Shown here: piece by piece, positions 38,070-43,509 of the stretch
Layout: each line of letters begins with the position of its first letter
Numbering within the stretch: position 1 is the first letter of the stretch
DNA from: Pirellulales bacterium
GTDB lineage: Bacteria; Planctomycetota; Planctomycetia; Pirellulales; JADZDJ01
Direction: 5' to 3'
Length of the DNA stretch: 64,000 bases
NCBI GenBank assembly: GCA_035656635.1
Contig: DASRSD010000184.1
Coordinates: 1 to 64,000, forward strand
Made by a program: the position numbers and the translations under genes
The notes under the pieces: generated by a model
Database searches by the model: none
What the model was told of the DNA's origin: nothing
Seen by the model: the letters and a program-made list of their open reading frames with translations, nothing else

Positions 38070-38957
38070 ATGGCCGACAACGAAGCGGACTTCGACGATT
38101 CGTCTTCTGCCTCGACCGGCAGTGTCGATCAGGCAGAGTTCGTAGGGCGGTCTCGGTTCGTGCTCGCGGCGTTGCTGGCTTTAGCCGCGCCGTTTTTGGT
38201 CGATGCCGCACCGATTGCCGGGCTGAAAACGCTGCACGGCGATGAGCTAATTTTGACGCCGCTCCTATTTAGCATCATCTTCGCCAAGTATGGCCTCATG
38301 GCCATGTGGCTGGCTTGGGGCGGATCGCGCGCCATTTGGCGAATGATTATCCTGGCGATCAGTTGGTTTTTCACCTGCATGCTTACGCCCGGGCCATACA
38401 CCGACGTGCCGCAGTTGTTTCTTGCATTCTATTTGCAATTGATCGTTATCGCCGCGGCCATTGCAGTGCCACGGCTATTTGGCGTGCGTTGGGTGGCGGA
38501 CGTAAAGTGGTCTGCCGGCGTTTCAGTCGCCCAGAATAAGCCCTACCAGTTTTCGATTTATGATCTGCTGATTTGGACCACCACAGTGGCCATTTTGGCG
38601 GAGCTGATTCGCTGGGTCGGCATGCCGCAGGGTGTTGGCATGGAAGGAATTTTTTTTATGTCCCTAGGCGGCGCAATGCTAGCTTTCATTGTGCTCACCG
38701 CCATGTGGGCACAATTGGCGGAAATGGCGGTTGGTTCCAGCATGGGCGGCCGGACCATTCTAACTTTCATCCTCGCATTGATTATGGCGGTTGTCGTCGT
38801 GTCCCTATCGCGAGCGCCGGGAAAAGCTGCAGCATTCCTATTCATGCTGATTCTGGCGACCACCGGTTGGCTCTTGGCTGCTTGCTACGTGCTGCGCTGT
38901 TACGGCCACCGCCTCGTACGGCGTAAATCATCCAGCCCGCAAGCGACAATAACATAA
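38070..38957 (+). CDS. Multi-pass membrane protein of unknown function
   Basis: A 295-residue membrane protein with an acidic N-terminal tail (about 25 residues) and seven or so hydrophobic helices (FVLAALLALAAPFLVD, LTPLLFSIIFAKYGLMAMWL, LFLAFYLQLIVIAAAIAV, GGAMLAFIVLTAMWAQLAEM, TILTFILALIMAVVVVSL, AAAFLFMLILATTGWLLAAC). No family motif is recognised. Its 3' end overlaps the end of the convergent PEP-CTERM gene by 116 bases. The frame is open throughout and composition is like its neighbours, so I accept both genes. Confidence 0.65.
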   Translation: MADNEADFDDSSSASTGSVDQAEFVGRSRFVLAALLALAAPFLVDAAPIAGLKTLHGDELILTPLLFSIIFAKYGLMAMWLAWGGSRAIWRMIILAISWFFTCMLTPGPYTDVPQLFLAFYLQLIVIAAAIAVPRLFGVRWVADVKWSAGVSVAQNKPYQFSIYDLLIWTTTVAILAELIRWVGMPQGVGMEGIFFMSLGGAMLAFIVLTAMWAQLAEMAVGSSMGGRTILTFILALIMAVVVVSLSRAPGKAAAFLFMLILATTGWLLAACYVLRCYGHRLVRRKSSSPQATIT

Positions 38958-39738
38958 GTGCACCTGCCGCCGGCTCAGGCACCGCGTTAATTACGCCGAC
39001 CGCGTCGAAATCGAAACCGCTGGAGGTGCTGACCGTGGAATAGGGATCGTTAATCACATTGCCGTTAAAATCAAGGCTATACGTACCAGGACCAAGCCCT
39101 TTATTGATATTCCCAATTACGTCGGTCACGCGCACGTATTGCACGTCGTTCACATCCAGCAGTGGGTTGCCGGCCAGTTCTTGCAGATCGAAGGGCGTGC
39201 CGGCCAAAGTGTCCCCCGCCAAATCGTGTAAATATGTGGGGTCCAAGAGATTCGCGTTGCTGATCTGCGTGGTGGTTTGCGTCAATGACACCGACGGAAA
39301 CCGAAAGAAATTCACGCCGTCGCTGCTCACGTCGACAAACCCTAATTCCAAAAAAGCTTGCGGCGGCGTGCCGGAGGCAAACCCGTTTTCAAATACCGCA
39401 AAATCGGAGCCTGGCCCGTTGAGGATCGGTTGCGCAAATTGAACGGCGATTTGGCCACCGTCTCCCAAGCTAACTACCTTGCCATCAGCCGGCCCGGTGG
39501 CGTTGCTTGCCGTGCCGAAAGACGCCGCAGATCCTGTCGGATTTGTAATATTCTGCGGGCCGCGTGTGATCGACGTCACTTGGCTTGCCCATTCCACAAA
39601 CTGCGGCGAGTTCGCCGAAATGCCCGGCGTGCTATACGGGCCGGCTCCAATCTGTGCGAAGCTCATTCGGGCAATCATTGCAAAAAGCACAACAGCAAAA
39701 ACAAATCGGCCAAAGTGCAAAACCTGTGCGCGTACCAT
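38842..39738 (-). CDS. PEP-CTERM surface protein, third gene of the B12-riboswitch group
   Basis: A 298-residue secreted protein: signal peptide (FGRFVFAVVLFAMIARMSFA), mature beta-rich region, and a C-terminal PEP-CTERM sorting signal (VPEPAAGALMLLSLAGWMIY then basic residues), which exosortase would process to anchor it at the surface. The core GSDFAVFENGFASGTPPQA followed by FLELGFVDVSSDGVNFFRFP suggests a beta-sandwich found in cell-surface proteins. A tail of about 24 residues follows the sorting signal, which is longer than usual. It is 82 bases after the dockerin/PEP-CTERM gene. The start at 39738 (MVRAQVLHFG) is set by the signal peptide. Confidence 0.78.
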   Translation of the reverse strand: MVRAQVLHFGRFVFAVVLFAMIARMSFAQIGAGPYSTPGISANSPQFVEWASQVTSITRGPQNITNPTGSAASFGTASNATGPADGKVVSLGDGGQIAVQFAQPILNGPGSDFAVFENGFASGTPPQAFLELGFVDVSSDGVNFFRFPSVSLTQTTTQISNANLLDPTYLHDLAGDTLAGTPFDLQELAGNPLLDVNDVQYVRVTDVIGNINKGLGPGTYSLDFNGNVINDPYSTVSTSSGFDFDAVGVINAVPEPAAGALMLLSLAGWMIYAVRGGGRNSAARSKQPRANRWSPESA

Positions 39739-39820
39739 GAGCGCGTCCTCCAAACGGGGATTTTTGAAAACATCGCACCGAACACATCGCCGGTGCAAAA
39801 AAGAAAAGCCGACTCGAACT

Positions 39821-41164
39821 CTACGCTGACGATGCCCTCATCCTGGCCTCGAACCAGCCGCGGCGGTAATACACCAACACGCCACAGCCCACGGCCCCAA
39901 TGGCCAACACCCAGGCCGCCGGCTCGGGCACACTGTTCACCGACCCGCCCCCGCTGAGCAGCAAGTTCAATAATCCTTGAAGATCGGCGTTGTTGACGGT
40001 TCCATCGTCGTTCAAATCGCCAATCGAAAGCATGTCCCTGGTGTTGAGCGTGGCATTTTGAGAGTTGCCGCCGTTCTGGTAGGCATTCAGATTGACCAGC
40101 GCCGCCAGCATGGCCACCACGTCGCTGGCGTCGACGTGCCCATCGAGATTGAAATCGCCTGGCAAATGCACATTAAAAGCGGAAGCGCTGTAAATGCCTT
40201 GTTCGTCGCCAAAGCCAGAGGCTAAAAACCGATCGTTCGCCTTGTCGTAAACCACGGAGGTATAGCCGTCGTTGCTATACACTTCGCTGTTCCCTTGCAA
40301 ATCGAACACCGTTACACCTTGGATGCCTCCCACAAATAAATACCCGCGCGCGTCGAAAAACATTCCGGCCCCGCCGTTGTTGTCTTTGGCATTGAACAGT
40401 TGGCCGCTGCTCCACTCCAGCGCCGTGTTGGTGTTGTAAGCGTTTTGCAAATCGCTGAGGGAGAACCGCCGGATTTGTCCTGCATCGGGACCAAAGCCTA
40501 CGCCCACGTATAGGCGACCGGACGAATCCATCGTCATCGACGTGCTGGCGCCGGGAATACCGTTGATGACTGAAATCGCCGGAACGCTTGCTCCTGCCGT
40601 GGAGTCGAATACCGAAACGTTGCTGCCGCTGCCAAATGCGTCAGTTCCTGAATCGATAAAGTATTTGCTGTTCGACCCGCTAAAAGGCGCGGCCAGAAAC
40701 GACGCATGAAACGGAATATTTCCCACAGGGCTGGTCGCATTTTCGCCAGCGGCAGACATGGCGAATATGTTCCCGGCATTCCCGTCCGGATTCGTGCCGC
40801 CGGCGCCGTTGCCCAACAAGATTTGGCTGAAGTCGGTGGAGAAGGTGATGGGACCGGCATCCGAGCCACTGGTGTTAACCGATCCAATCGACGTGTATGA
40901 ATCGCTGTTGAATCCGTCTTGCTTGAGCACGCTGGCCCCGTCCCACACGTACATCAATCCGTCCAACGGTCCAAAAGCCACCGATACACCATAGGCATCG
41001 CTGCTGTTTAGCGGCAAGTTGACCGGCGTGGTCGGATCACCCAGCGAAACGGCTAATGCCCGGGTCGTTAGCAGCATGCAGCACAACCACGCGCAACCTC
41101 TCACTCCCATCAAAATCAGCCAAGCCGGCCGGCCATTCCGAGCTAAACAAGAATTTATGAACAT
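39821..41164 (-). CDS. Beta-propeller-like surface protein with dockerin and PEP-CTERM
   Basis: A 447-residue secreted protein. After a signal peptide (AWLCCMLLTTRALA) come six or seven repeats of 40-50 residues with strand-turn-strand patterns (SVAFGPLDGLMYVWDGASV, STDFSQILLGNGAG, MDSSGRLYVGVGFGPD, FFDARGYLFVGGIQGVTVFD, YDKANDRFLASGFGDEQGIY), which read as a YncE/NHL-like beta-propeller. Next is a dockerin-like pair of calcium loops (GDFNLDGHVDASDVVAML and GDLNDDGTVNNADLQGLLNL), then PEP-CTERM signal VPEPAAWVLAIGAVGCGVLV and YYRRG. It is the middle gene of the riboswitch-led group. Binding of cobalamin is suggested by context only. Confidence 0.8.
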   Translation of the reverse strand: MFINSCLARNGRPAWLILMGVRGCAWLCCMLLTTRALAVSLGDPTTPVNLPLNSSDAYGVSVAFGPLDGLMYVWDGASVLKQDGFNSDSYTSIGSVNTSGSDAGPITFSTDFSQILLGNGAGGTNPDGNAGNIFAMSAAGENATSPVGNIPFHASFLAAPFSGSNSKYFIDSGTDAFGSGSNVSVFDSTAGASVPAISVINGIPGASTSMTMDSSGRLYVGVGFGPDAGQIRRFSLSDLQNAYNTNTALEWSSGQLFNAKDNNGGAGMFFDARGYLFVGGIQGVTVFDLQGNSEVYSNDGYTSVVYDKANDRFLASGFGDEQGIYSASAFNVHLPGDFNLDGHVDASDVVAMLAALVNLNAYQNGGNSQNATLNTRDMLSIGDLNDDGTVNNADLQGLLNLLLSGGGSVNSVPEPAAWVLAIGAVGCGVLVYYRRGWFEARMRASSA

Positions 41165-41227
41165 GATGAAGCTCCCGATTTAACACACTATTCAATAAAG
41201 TTGAACAATTTGCGGAGTTAACAATTC

Positions 41228-42232
41228 TTAAGGTAAATTCATCGATGCGCCGTCGACGGTTTCTCCACTGGCGCGCGTGCACAGCGCCGCCAGCACTTCC
41301 AACTGCGTGAGTTCACCTAAAAAATGCACTGAGCCGTCGCAGAATAACGCGTTGATGCCGCCGGAGTGGTCGCTCCACATTTCGTTATTTTGCCACAGAT
41401 ATTCTGGCACCGAATGATCGTTGATCAGGCCGCTTTCGTCGAAAATGTTTTCGCCGTTGGCCCATTGCCCATCGAAAGCGGCGCCGCGGCCGGTATCTTC
41501 TGAAACGATAATGGTGTGCGAAGCGCCGTCGGTAATATCTGCCAACGAAATCGGCTGCTCGTAAATCAGCACGCCGTTCATGTAGGGTTTGCCCAAGCCA
41601 TTGAAGCCAAAGTTGCCGCCGTAATCGGTGAAGGCCAAATTATCGCCGGGATCCCAGTGGCCGTTGCCGTTCATATCGCCGGTGGTCATGCCGGTTCGAT
41701 CGGCGGCATACCGCGTGCAACTGGGGCAATTGAAAATTGGCAAAATGGCGCCGGCGGCCAGCGCATTTTCCTGGGCGTTGTAAGCTTTGGTTAAATCGAA
41801 CTTGGCGAATAACGATTGTTCGCCAATGAACGGCAGCAGAAACACATTCCAACTGAGCTGACGCCCCTTCGGATTCGCGCTGGTCTTGCGATCTAACAGC
41901 CCGGGCGGAAAGGCATGCTTGGCCTCATGGTGCGTCAATAATCCCAGCCCGATTTGATGTAAATTGTTCTGGCATGCCGTGCGCCGCGCAGCTTCCCGGG
42001 CTGCTTGCACCGCCGGCAGCAATAGTGCGATCAGCACGCCAATAATCGCCAGCACCACCAGCAGCTCGACCAGCGTGAAGGCGGAAGCAATGCGGAATGC
42101 GGAATGGGGGGTGAGGAATGGATGGTGAACTGAGCTGCCAGTTGTCCGTGGTCCGTTGTTGCTCGTTGCCGGCAACTGGCCACTAACCACTGACGACTGA
42201 CCACGGCGCATCTTCAAGCCATGAGCGCTCAT
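41228..42232 (-). CDS. DUF1559 prepilin-like protein downstream of cobalamin riboswitch
   Basis: A 334-residue protein of the DUF1559 family, abundant in Planctomycetes. The type IV pilin-like helix is FTLVELLVVLAIIGVLIALL and then LPAVQAAREAARR, starting near residue 51, and the C-terminal H-x9-DG region appears as SDHSGGINALFCDGSVHFL. Unlike the usual 5-20 residue leader, about 50 residues precede FTLVELL and appear to be encoded by intergenic-type repeat DNA (42090-42210). Start codons at 42232 and 42211 are both possible; neither has a clear ribosome site. Calling it a pilus part is not justified. Confidence 0.82.
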   Translation of the reverse strand: MSAHGLKMRRGQSSVVSGQLPATSNNGPRTTGSSVHHPFLTPHSAFRIASAFTLVELLVVLAIIGVLIALLLPAVQAAREAARRTACQNNLHQIGLGLLTHHEAKHAFPPGLLDRKTSANPKGRQLSWNVFLLPFIGEQSLFAKFDLTKAYNAQENALAAGAILPIFNCPSCTRYAADRTGMTTGDMNGNGHWDPGDNLAFTDYGGNFGFNGLGKPYMNGVLIYEQPISLADITDGASHTIIVSEDTGRGAAFDGQWANGENIFDESGLINDHSVPEYLWQNNEMWSDHSGGINALFCDGSVHFLGELTQLEVLAALCTRASGETVDGASMNLP

Positions 42233-42264
42233 TGCGGCAGAAGCTATAGCAAAATGGAAACGTT

Positions 42265-42295
42265 GGCCGTGCTGTCCCTCGCAGCACAAACGGCA
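42265..42295 (-). terminator. Hairpin after riboswitch, possible expression platform
   Basis: Between the aptamer and the DUF1559 start, the minus strand reads GCCGTTTGTGCTG, loop CGAGGGA, CAGCACGGC, then AACGTTTCCATTTT. The stem is GC-rich and a modest T-rich tail follows, so it could be the regulated terminator. It is not a textbook T-run, and control at the level of translation is equally possible. Confidence 0.4.
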
Positions 42296-42304
42296 CAAAA
42301 TCGC

Positions 42305-42516
42305 GTTGGTAGGTCTTCTGACTTCCGAGCCGTACGTCGCCACAGCCTTCTCGCCGCAACGGTCCAAATTGCTTTTGCAAAGAGGATCGCGCGACAATGG
42401 CAATTAGAAAACGACGTGCGTTACCGCTCGGTTACAGCGGCGGGGCCGTCCCGGGTTTACACCGGAGTTCCCTGTTTGTTGGCCGAAAAATCAAACGCTT
42501 TCAGCCAACCACCAAC
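42305..42516 (-). ncRNA. Cobalamin (B12) riboswitch aptamer
   Basis: Read on the minus strand. The conserved core runs AACAGGGAACTCCGGTG, then TAAACCCGGGACGGCCCCGC, then CGCTGTAACCG (42430-42480), and the B12-box GAAGTCAGAAGACCTACC lies at 42308-42325. The closing P1 stem pairs GTTGGT (42511-42516) with ACCAAC (42305-42310). Together these are the diagnostic elements of a cobalamin riboswitch, which senses adenosyl- or hydroxo/aquocobalamin and usually lowers expression when B12 is plentiful. It precedes the DUF1559 gene by 73 bases, with the two PEP-CTERM genes following. No transport or synthesis gene for B12 is in the window. Confidence 0.93.
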
Positions 42517-42528
42517 ACACTACCGGGC

Positions 42529-42556
42529 AATGTAGCAGTAAAAAAATCAATTGCAA
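42529..42556 (-). promoter_or_regulatory. Predicted promoter of the riboswitch transcript
   Basis: On the minus strand TTGCAA (42551-42556), 16 bases, then TACATT (42529-42534) resembles a sigma-70 promoter with two mismatches per box. A start about seven bases later would fall just before the first aptamer stem at 42516, which supports it. Confidence 0.45.
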
Positions 42557-42576
42557 GAGGCCGAAATTGCAGGCAA

Positions 42577-43509
42577 TTATGACCGAATTCGGACTGCTTT
42601 TCGTATTGGCCGCGCTTTTGCATCGCGATGACTTCGCTGCTTGCCGTTGACCGTGGCCGGGGCGCTGGCTAAGGGATCGGCTGCGCCGTTGAGTGGATCG
42701 CCAACCGCTGCTTTTTCAATGCGCTGCGTTGCTTGCCGCGCATAATCAGGCGAAAGTTCAAAGCCCATCCAGTTGCGGCCCAATTTTTTTGCCACCGTGA
42801 GCGTGGTGCCGCTGCCGGTAAATGGATCGAGCACTAAATCGCCGGCGTTCGAGCTGGCCCGCACAATCCGCCCTAGCAATTGCTCGGGCATTTGGCAGCC
42901 GTGAAAACCGGCCCGCTCTTTGAATGTGCCTGCCACACGCGGGAAGTACCAGGTGTCCGAATTCTCGCTGAATCCTCCCGTCACATCTTGCGGTCGTAGT
43001 ATCCACGTATCGTCCGGCAGCCGACCCTTGGGATTCGCCCGCGCATCGGCATACACCAATTGCCGGGCCGACGGAACCCGAATCGTCGGGTCGTCAAAAT
43101 TAAACGTGAACTGCTTCGGGTCTTTCAAAAAATGAAACAAATGGGCGTGCGAGCGATTGAACTTCCGCGTGCAATTCACGCCGAAGGTGTAATACCAAAT
43201 CACCCAACTGCGGCAACTGAAGCCCAAATCGCGGGCTAAGACCTTGAGCTCCGCGGCATATTCGTCGCCAATGGCCAGCCAGAACGTGCCATCGGGCCGC
43301 AATGCCCGGTATACGCCGGCCATCCATTGCCGTGACCAATCCAGGTAGTGCTGGTAGGCCTTCCGGTCGTCGTACACATCGTACTCGTAGCCGATGTTGA
43401 ACGGCGGATCGGCAAACGCCAAATGCACGCTGCCCGGCTCCAGCTTGGCCAGCAGTTCGATGCAATCGCCCTGATGAATTCGATTGTTTTTGAAAGCCAC
43501 GGAAGACAC
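42577..43509 (-). CDS. Solitary DNA adenine/cytosine methyltransferase (beta class)
   Basis: A 310-residue site-specific DNA methyltransferase. The catalytic motif IV is DPPF at 34-37 and the SAM motif is DPFTGSGTT at 228-236; the order IV before I marks the beta group, which usually methylates the exocyclic amino group of adenine or cytosine N4. No restriction endonuclease lies nearby, so it is probably an orphan, possibly regulatory, enzyme like CcrM. The C-terminal tail is basic ([21 protein letters not shown] without similarity). The start at 43509 ([10 protein letters not shown]) is typical. Confidence 0.87.

Follow-up and report, generated by a model that had tools for sequence, protein, structure and literature searches.

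What would a cobalamin riboswitch be doing at the head of genes for exported proteins, with none of the classical B12 genes behind it? The question is raised by a 64,000-nucleotide (nt) stretch of DNA, the window, from a Pirellulales bacterium of the phylum Planctomycetota (GenBank assembly GCA_035656635.1, contig DASRSD010000184.1, positions 1 to 64,000 of the forward strand), where such a riboswitch is followed on the minus strand by the genes for a DUF1559 pseudopilin, a protein of 447 amino acids (aa) and a third protein of 298 aa. The answer favoured here, and held to be quite likely, is that the group constitutes a B12-repressed system for capture at the cell surface, a planctomycete counterpart of BtuG, BtuH and BtuJ of Bacteroides. 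It is favoured because the genes recur with the riboswitch, because the 447-aa type of protein is exchanged in related genomes with the B12-binding DUF4465, and because the third protein has remote homology, as judged from profiles, to BtuH. The BtuH-like gene and the DUF4465 exchange carry the case, with the 447-aa protein and its modelled propeller a possible second binder. The features concerned are:

42291-42531, minus: cobalamin riboswitch aptamer (RF00174, 86.5 bits, E 6.1e-20)
41228-42232, minus: DUF1559 pseudopilin, first gene after the riboswitch; 334 aa from the likely ATG at 42232 (PF07596 1.5e-47, N_methyl 4.1e-5)
39821-41164, minus: 447-aa exported protein with propeller-like domain, dockerin and PEP-CTERM-like tail (Dockerin_1 4.3e-6)
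40190-41035, minus: propeller-like domain of the 447-aa protein, residues 44-325 (alignment, AlphaFold2 model, Foldseek, VIA-align)
39860-40171, minus: dockerin and PEP-CTERM-like end of the 447-aa protein, residues ~332-435 (Pfam)
38842-39738, minus: BtuH-like protein with signal peptide-like start and PEP-CTERM-like tail; 298 aa from the likely ATG at 39738 (family profiles match 8blw_B and 7biz_A)
38983-39651, minus: BtuH-like domain proper (profile alignment)

The riboswitch match spans model positions 1-189 and stands far over the gathering score of 31.5 bits (cmscan). A first-pass annotation of this DNA had claimed a full aptamer at 42305-42516 and proposed a scan with the Rfam cobalamin model as a check; the claimed span falls within the match so obtained. 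This is the sole gathering-level match of any Rfam family in the window, and the single cobalamin riboswitch match in the whole genome, a 4.9 Mb metagenome-assembled genome in 190 contigs, 95.6% complete. Gaps of 63 and 82 nt separate the successive genes, the open reading frame coordinates agreeing with the first-pass description, and, as also stated there, the group is not followed by any gene of the btuB, btuF, cob or metE kinds; nor is there a TonB-dependent receptor gene within the group.

Recurrence of the gene group and its exchange with DUF4465

The first-pass annotation had suggested a survey of whether the pairing of riboswitch and genes recurs. It does, both in 146 genomes drawn evenly from the larger order and beyond the order. 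In the order sample, matches to the third protein were found at 39 places in 38 genomes, to DUF4465 (PF14717, with no match in the window's own genome) at 59 places in 51 genomes and to the N-terminal domain of the 447-aa protein at 7 places, the many further matches to that protein being to its dockerin/PEP-CTERM end; the window's own places are counted among the 39 and the 7. Set against the best 150 riboswitch matches in the order (further ones exist), 28 of the 39, 42 of the 59 and 6 of the 7 follow one on the same strand at a distance of up to 7 kb. Another 9 riboswitches came from a targeted Rfam scan of 13 loci, where a gene was unlinked or possibly so or where no riboswitch was listed, and the linked totals become 32/39, 55/59 and 6/7, all same strand and at no more than 4.5 kb. 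On the opposite strand no gene of the three kinds lies in the 6 kb after a riboswitch, and the linked fraction to be expected is, roughly and on assumed figures of 180 riboswitches and 5.6 Mb per genome, 0.0005. As to the exceptions, three of the four unlinked DUF4465 genes are less than 1.3 kb from a contig end and the other, in G135, has no riboswitch in the 4,950 bases that separate it from its contig end; of the seven unlinked third-protein matches, two stand where a contig ends and the other five are weak (E 2.9e-4 to 9.2e-4); the sole unlinked 447-type place sits at a contig end. Across the phylum 31 of 294 genomes have a third-protein match at E <=0.001, some of them short or weak, and for 10 of the 18 third-protein loci outside the order a cobalamin riboswitch is present upstream on the same strand (flanks up to 1.5 kb).

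What, more generally, do these riboswitches head? For 159 of them, the window's included, the DNA that follows was examined over as much as 6 kb with trimmed models, the first models having also caught PEP-CTERM ends; the trimmed ones miss divergent members, such as that of G106, so that the locus counts tend to be low. In 101 of the 156 loci having at least 700 nt, a DUF1559 gene on the same strand lies no more than 900 nt away, with ~0.6 in 156 expected by chance from the 45 matches per 4.9 Mb in the window's genome. Where at least 3 kb is available (141 loci), one or more of DUF4465, the 447-type and the third-protein type occur in 72, DUF1559 being first in 58 of these. Other riboswitches head btuB, metE, nrdA or cob genes, which are known kinds of target.

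DUF4465 and the 447-type never occur together in the 141 loci (the latter being present at nine of the 159), and because of this mutual exclusion the 447-type is regarded as a substitute: it takes DUF4465's place in the cassette. G035, of the same family as the window's genome, has DUF4465. That domain binds B12, and among the members reported to do so is one of the planctomycete Mucisphaera calidilacus (PMC13398666); in the available text of that paper the three mentions of riboswitches concern gut species and B. thetaiotaomicron, and the word ‘Planctomyc’ is absent. The resemblance to these jelly-roll B12 binders, of the DUF4465/BtuJ kind, consists in their being exported and in their occupying, in related genomes, the same slot after riboswitch and DUF1559; the difference is that in the window the slot is held by the 447-type, which is not homologous to them by the tools used. 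No published account of such a planctomycete riboswitch cassette was found in the literature searched, which misses most subscription papers and preprints.

Several loci have individual features. At L082 (G054:C8) and L098 (G063:C131) two cobalamin riboswitches share a strand at a spacing of ~1.4 kb and have a partner gene apiece, and at L138 (G116:C42) and L139 (G112:C129) a single riboswitch is followed by three consecutive DUF4465 stretches, which lie in very long open frames. Yet another kind of protein, cluster C21, is in the second slot of L062 (4162-4860) and L074 (2652-3329); it has no Pfam match, and its L074 member has no PDB match better than E 0.27. L185 (G120:C1:6198700-6205100) is a consecutive series of riboswitch, DUF1559 gene and genes for CobU-like, BtuF-like and BtuC-like proteins, in one of the few genomes of the sample with cobyric acid synthase over the cut-off.

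Is there a need for such a system? The window's genome encodes MetH (1630 bits against a cut-off of 1497) and further corrinoid-binding proteins, its cobyric acid synthase match is under the cut-off, and on this gene content the bacterium probably imports B12. The order sample has riboswitch matches in 135/146 genomes and cobyric acid synthase over the cut-off in 4/146. A match to FecCD, the BtuC type of permease, is over the cut-off in 98/146 and above 150 bits in 30/146 (a hand count of the table), the remaining matches, partial and below 55 bits, being taken for other permeases. For an order so equipped, the cassette names candidate genes for B12 import.

The BtuH-like, propeller-like and pseudopilin proteins

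The strongest link of the system to Bacteroides is, as far as profile comparison can tell, that to BtuH via the third protein rather than that to BtuG via the 447-aa protein. The open reading frame list has the third gene at 38842-39798, 318 aa from TTG 39798. Its product matches no Pfam or NCBIfam model over cut-off, the best NCBIfam model being NF033170, an LIC_13355-type lipoprotein family (4.1e-5, under cut-off). A profile of 20 relatives matches residues 373-474 of PDB chain 8blw_B at E 3.3e-6; one of 25 members, of which 13 come from beyond the order, matches 8blw_B (1.4e-4) and 7biz_A (0.0035) and no other PDB chain at E <=10. 8BLW is BtuB1G1, in which BtuG1 has a C-terminal BtuH domain (PMC10404256), and 7BIZ is BtuH2 with B12 (PMC8941943). 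By these matches the third protein's family is a remote homologue of BtuH. A Pfam scan of the 25 members found PEP-CTERM in 5 and no other family in any.

Reported B12 contacts of BtuH2 are Gln333, Asn399 (a phosphate contact), Phe401, His476, Tyr510, Trp511, Trp577 and Leu578 (PMC8941943), the first three of which match Q, N and F in the printed stretch of 7biz at one common offset. Asn138 and Phe140 of the third protein (numbered from TTG 39798) align with Asn399 and Phe401, and in the 25-member family the former position is Asn in all 25 and the latter Phe in 19. With BtuH2 and the BtuH domain of BtuG1 of Bacteroides thetaiotaomicron the third protein thus has in common remote sequence homology, a riboswitch-controlled locus, export and these two positions; it differs in having a gene to itself, with neither a PKD domain nor a fused propeller, in having no btuB beside it and in the partial extent of the domain alignment. 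Direct reading of the start of the 298-aa protein found no lipobox cysteine, and the protein is for that reason classed as BtuH-like and not as a Bacteroides-type BtuH lipoprotein, a PEP-CTERM-like tail standing in place of the cysteine. The BtuH domain, which the literature found treats in Bacteroidetes alone, would on this evidence extend to Planctomycetota.

For the 447-aa protein, which aligns with five relatives at 36-53% identity, AlphaFold2 with four sequences gave a largely beta model of the N-terminal domain at low confidence (predicted local distance difference test, pLDDT, 46.3), and this low confidence tells against a firm place for it in B12 capture. Searching with that model, Foldseek returned best rows at E 1.9e-5 with TM values of about 0.3-0.5, and VIA-align, run on the 969 chains ranked highest by Foldseek, a best Z of 13.3, with Z >=8 for 859 of them. 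The top rows of both are largely beta-propellers (lactonase, WD40, gluconolactonase, strictosidine synthase). That the domain has a beta-propeller fold is likely on this modelling; the first-pass description of it as propeller-like is favoured by the structural rows but tempered by the quality of the model that found them. With the single 447-aa protein, PDB searches gave dockerins and weak, chance-like matches, and neither it nor a six-sequence profile matched BtuG in the PDB; BtuG's absence from the displayed Foldseek and VIA-align rows excludes nothing.

The first-pass annotation had gone on to propose a counterpart of BtuG. Its notion of riboswitch-linked capture of B12 at the surface is supported by the recurrence, the DUF4465 exchange and the BtuH homology, but the tie to BtuG through the 447-aa protein is weaker, given the lack of a sequence match in the PDB searches and the low-confidence model. 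What is shared with BtuG, a surface propeller lipoprotein of Bacteroides (PDB 3dsm), is an exported protein of propeller-like model encoded in a B12-riboswitch locus beside a BtuH-like gene, and in BtuG1 a BtuG propeller and BtuH are fused in one protein (PMC10404256), whereas the window has separate genes. Unlike BtuG, the 447-aa protein has a dockerin and PEP-CTERM-like end, and the gene for BtuG is beside btuB, while the window locus has no BtuB partner. BtuG homologues are reported, in the part of PMC6143338 available, from Bacteroidetes alone. A 447-type gene of another genome, G144, has suggestive neighbours: on contig C69 its end is followed after 6 nt by a gene for a BtuF-like protein (Peripla_BP_2 3.6e-37; the BtuF model, 4e-26, is under cut-off and the top NCBIfam model is TIGR04281, another binding protein) and, 8 nt further on, by one for a BtuC-like permease (FecCD 7.6e-85; top NCBIfam model BtuC, 1.2e-76, under cut-off). 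The riboswitch and DUF1559 of G144 are near the end of a different contig, C78, and it is plausible that all five elements form one row.

The dockerin/PEP-CTERM end is matched at ten other places in the window's genome and at eleven in G018, of the same genus, and because of this recurrence it looks, by sequence, like a shared anchoring cassette. A 511-aa protein in the same slot of L096 was set aside as not homologous to the 447-aa protein by the tools used, the tails alone aligning.

The first gene had been called DUF1559 at first pass, and its product has both the PF07596 domain and the prepilin motif that mark DUF1559 pseudopilins, together with a TIGR04294 match (2.4e-8) and an H-X9-DG end; in these respects it resembles planctomycete DUF1559 pseudopilins generally. 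What the earlier account did not recognize, and the locus counts and a tree now indicate, is that the system includes this gene as a conserved component. The tree comprises 98 riboswitch-linked proteins (3 of the 101 linked genes were dropped by a coverage filter) and 29 paralogues of the window's genome, the best, its own aside, of 45 matches, five of them covering no more than 60% of the model; paralogues of other genomes were left out. In it 75 of the 98, the window's included, form one paralogue-free group (support 0.88), and the nearest relatives of the window's protein adjoin 447-type genes in a group of four (support 0.997). Because the riboswitch-linked group is separate in the tree from those paralogues, which sets the window gene apart from the pseudopilins it resembles, the gene seems to have been inherited as part of the cassette. 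For so large a family (Rhodopirellula baltica has 74 DUF1559 genes; PMC2754498) a specific role is thereby suggested for one lineage. The DNA coding for the leader ahead of the prepilin motif (42089-42200, minus) is repeat-like, CATTCCGCATTCCGCATT having 3 matches (<=3 mismatches), two of them overlapping, against 0.2 expected.

Proposed surface capture of B12 and competing accounts

Bacteroides places its B12 binders BtuG, BtuH and BtuJ on the surface (PMC6143338, PMC8941943, PMC12751083). In the proposed planctomycete counterpart, shortage of B12 would lift repression by the riboswitch and allow three exported proteins to be made: the DUF1559 pseudopilin, the propeller-like protein and the BtuH-like protein. 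The latter two would probably be held at the surface by their PEP-CTERM-like (and dockerin) ends, where the BtuH-like protein, and probably the propeller, would bind cobamides outside the cell, and what was bound would be passed to an entry route across two membranes. With B12 plentiful the aptamer would shut the group down. Exported planctomycete proteins without a functional name are thereby offered both a function and a regulator.

To the low-confidence propeller model several other points that weigh against surface capture have to be added. On its own the window's third protein finds no BtuH in the PDB (stomatins appear at E 0.058 and worse), an AlphaFold2 model of it made with four sequences was unusable (mean pLDDT 32.5), the position of Gln333 is not conserved in its family, and most of the BtuH2 contacts, from His476 to Leu578, are beyond the aligned stretch. 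The PEP-CTERM tails that the first-pass annotation ascribed to both last proteins are readable, but they score under the curated cut-offs (14.5 and 13.6 against 20.7; for TIGR02595 the third protein has 15.7 against 16). No switching structure is visible, neither a terminator-like site nor a clear sequestering hairpin having been seen after the aptamer. As to the import step, the window's genome has 0 matches to a BtuC-type (FecCD) permease, though the missing part of the genome could hold one, and its one plug-domain match is in a protein that is truncated where its contig ends and has no NCBIfam match. G018, despite being of the same genus, has after DUF1559 a different dockerin-bearing second gene and no third-protein match, its contig ending early; 12 of the 141 loci have none of the labelled genes, and 23 have DUF1559 without any labelled partner.

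The last figure suits a different account, in which the proteins answer to B12 status without binding the vitamin, in attachment or biofilm for instance, with B12 a sign of neighbours or nutrients. Dockerin, PEP-CTERM-like tails and pseudopilins would all be at home in adhesion, and binding of B12 by the window's proteins is itself a deduction from sequence. Yet B12 binding is published for DUF4465 (PMC13398666), the partner that is exchangeable here, the third protein resembles BtuH and the 447-type gene of G144 precedes btuF- and btuC-like genes, all of which makes the adhesion account decidedly improbable. A greater chance, though still short of an even one, can be given to capture by the third protein alone, the 447-aa propeller being an enzyme or scaffold (one that frees or trims cobamides, perhaps) which came into the DUF4465 slot by chance. 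The lack of a sequence match to BtuG, the low model confidence and the lactonase and other enzymes among the best structural rows are in keeping with it, and against it are the exclusion of 447-type and DUF4465 from one another's loci, tempered by the small number of 447-type loci, and again the neighbours in G144. Might the riboswitch regulate the DUF1559 gene alone, the two genes behind being conserved neighbours under their own control? The frequency of DUF1559 directly behind the riboswitch would fit, as would the synteny, in several loci, of housekeeping genes further down (methyltransferase, AroE-like, BioD). However, 14 of the 72 partner-bearing loci have no recognized DUF1559 gene first, the intergenic gaps are short, and no promoter-like site was found at 41900-42700, the span scanned, outside which the gaps between the three genes lie; such restricted regulation is very improbable.

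If surface capture is nevertheless the right reading, what might the pseudopilin contribute to it? B12, of ~1,355 Da, is larger than a porin limit of ~600 Da. That limit is the one put forward in a study of Planctopirus limnophila and Gemmata obscuriglobus, in which pili-like fibres at crateriform structures bind dextran (PMC5394234). Building on those fibres and on the disparity in size, it may be speculated that the DUF1559 protein forms a B12-repressed surface fibre which displays or works with the B12 binders of a given cassette (DUF4465, the propeller or the BtuH-like protein). Such a fibre would carry the vitamin through the planctomycete outer membrane, possibly where the crateriform structures are, and would dispense with BtuB and, in genomes like this one, with BtuC as well. 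This pilus-assisted uptake is an unlikely reading.

Neighbouring and incidental sequences

The gene group terminates at a convergent gene for a 295-aa protein (38070-38957, plus), which has no Pfam or NCBIfam match and whose end is overlapped for 116 nt by that of the third gene (38842-38957). Viral contigs were also scanned, with no relatives confirmed. At L144 (6568-6613, minus), in a genome of the order, there is an Acido-Lenti-1 RNA (RF01687, 46.4 bits).

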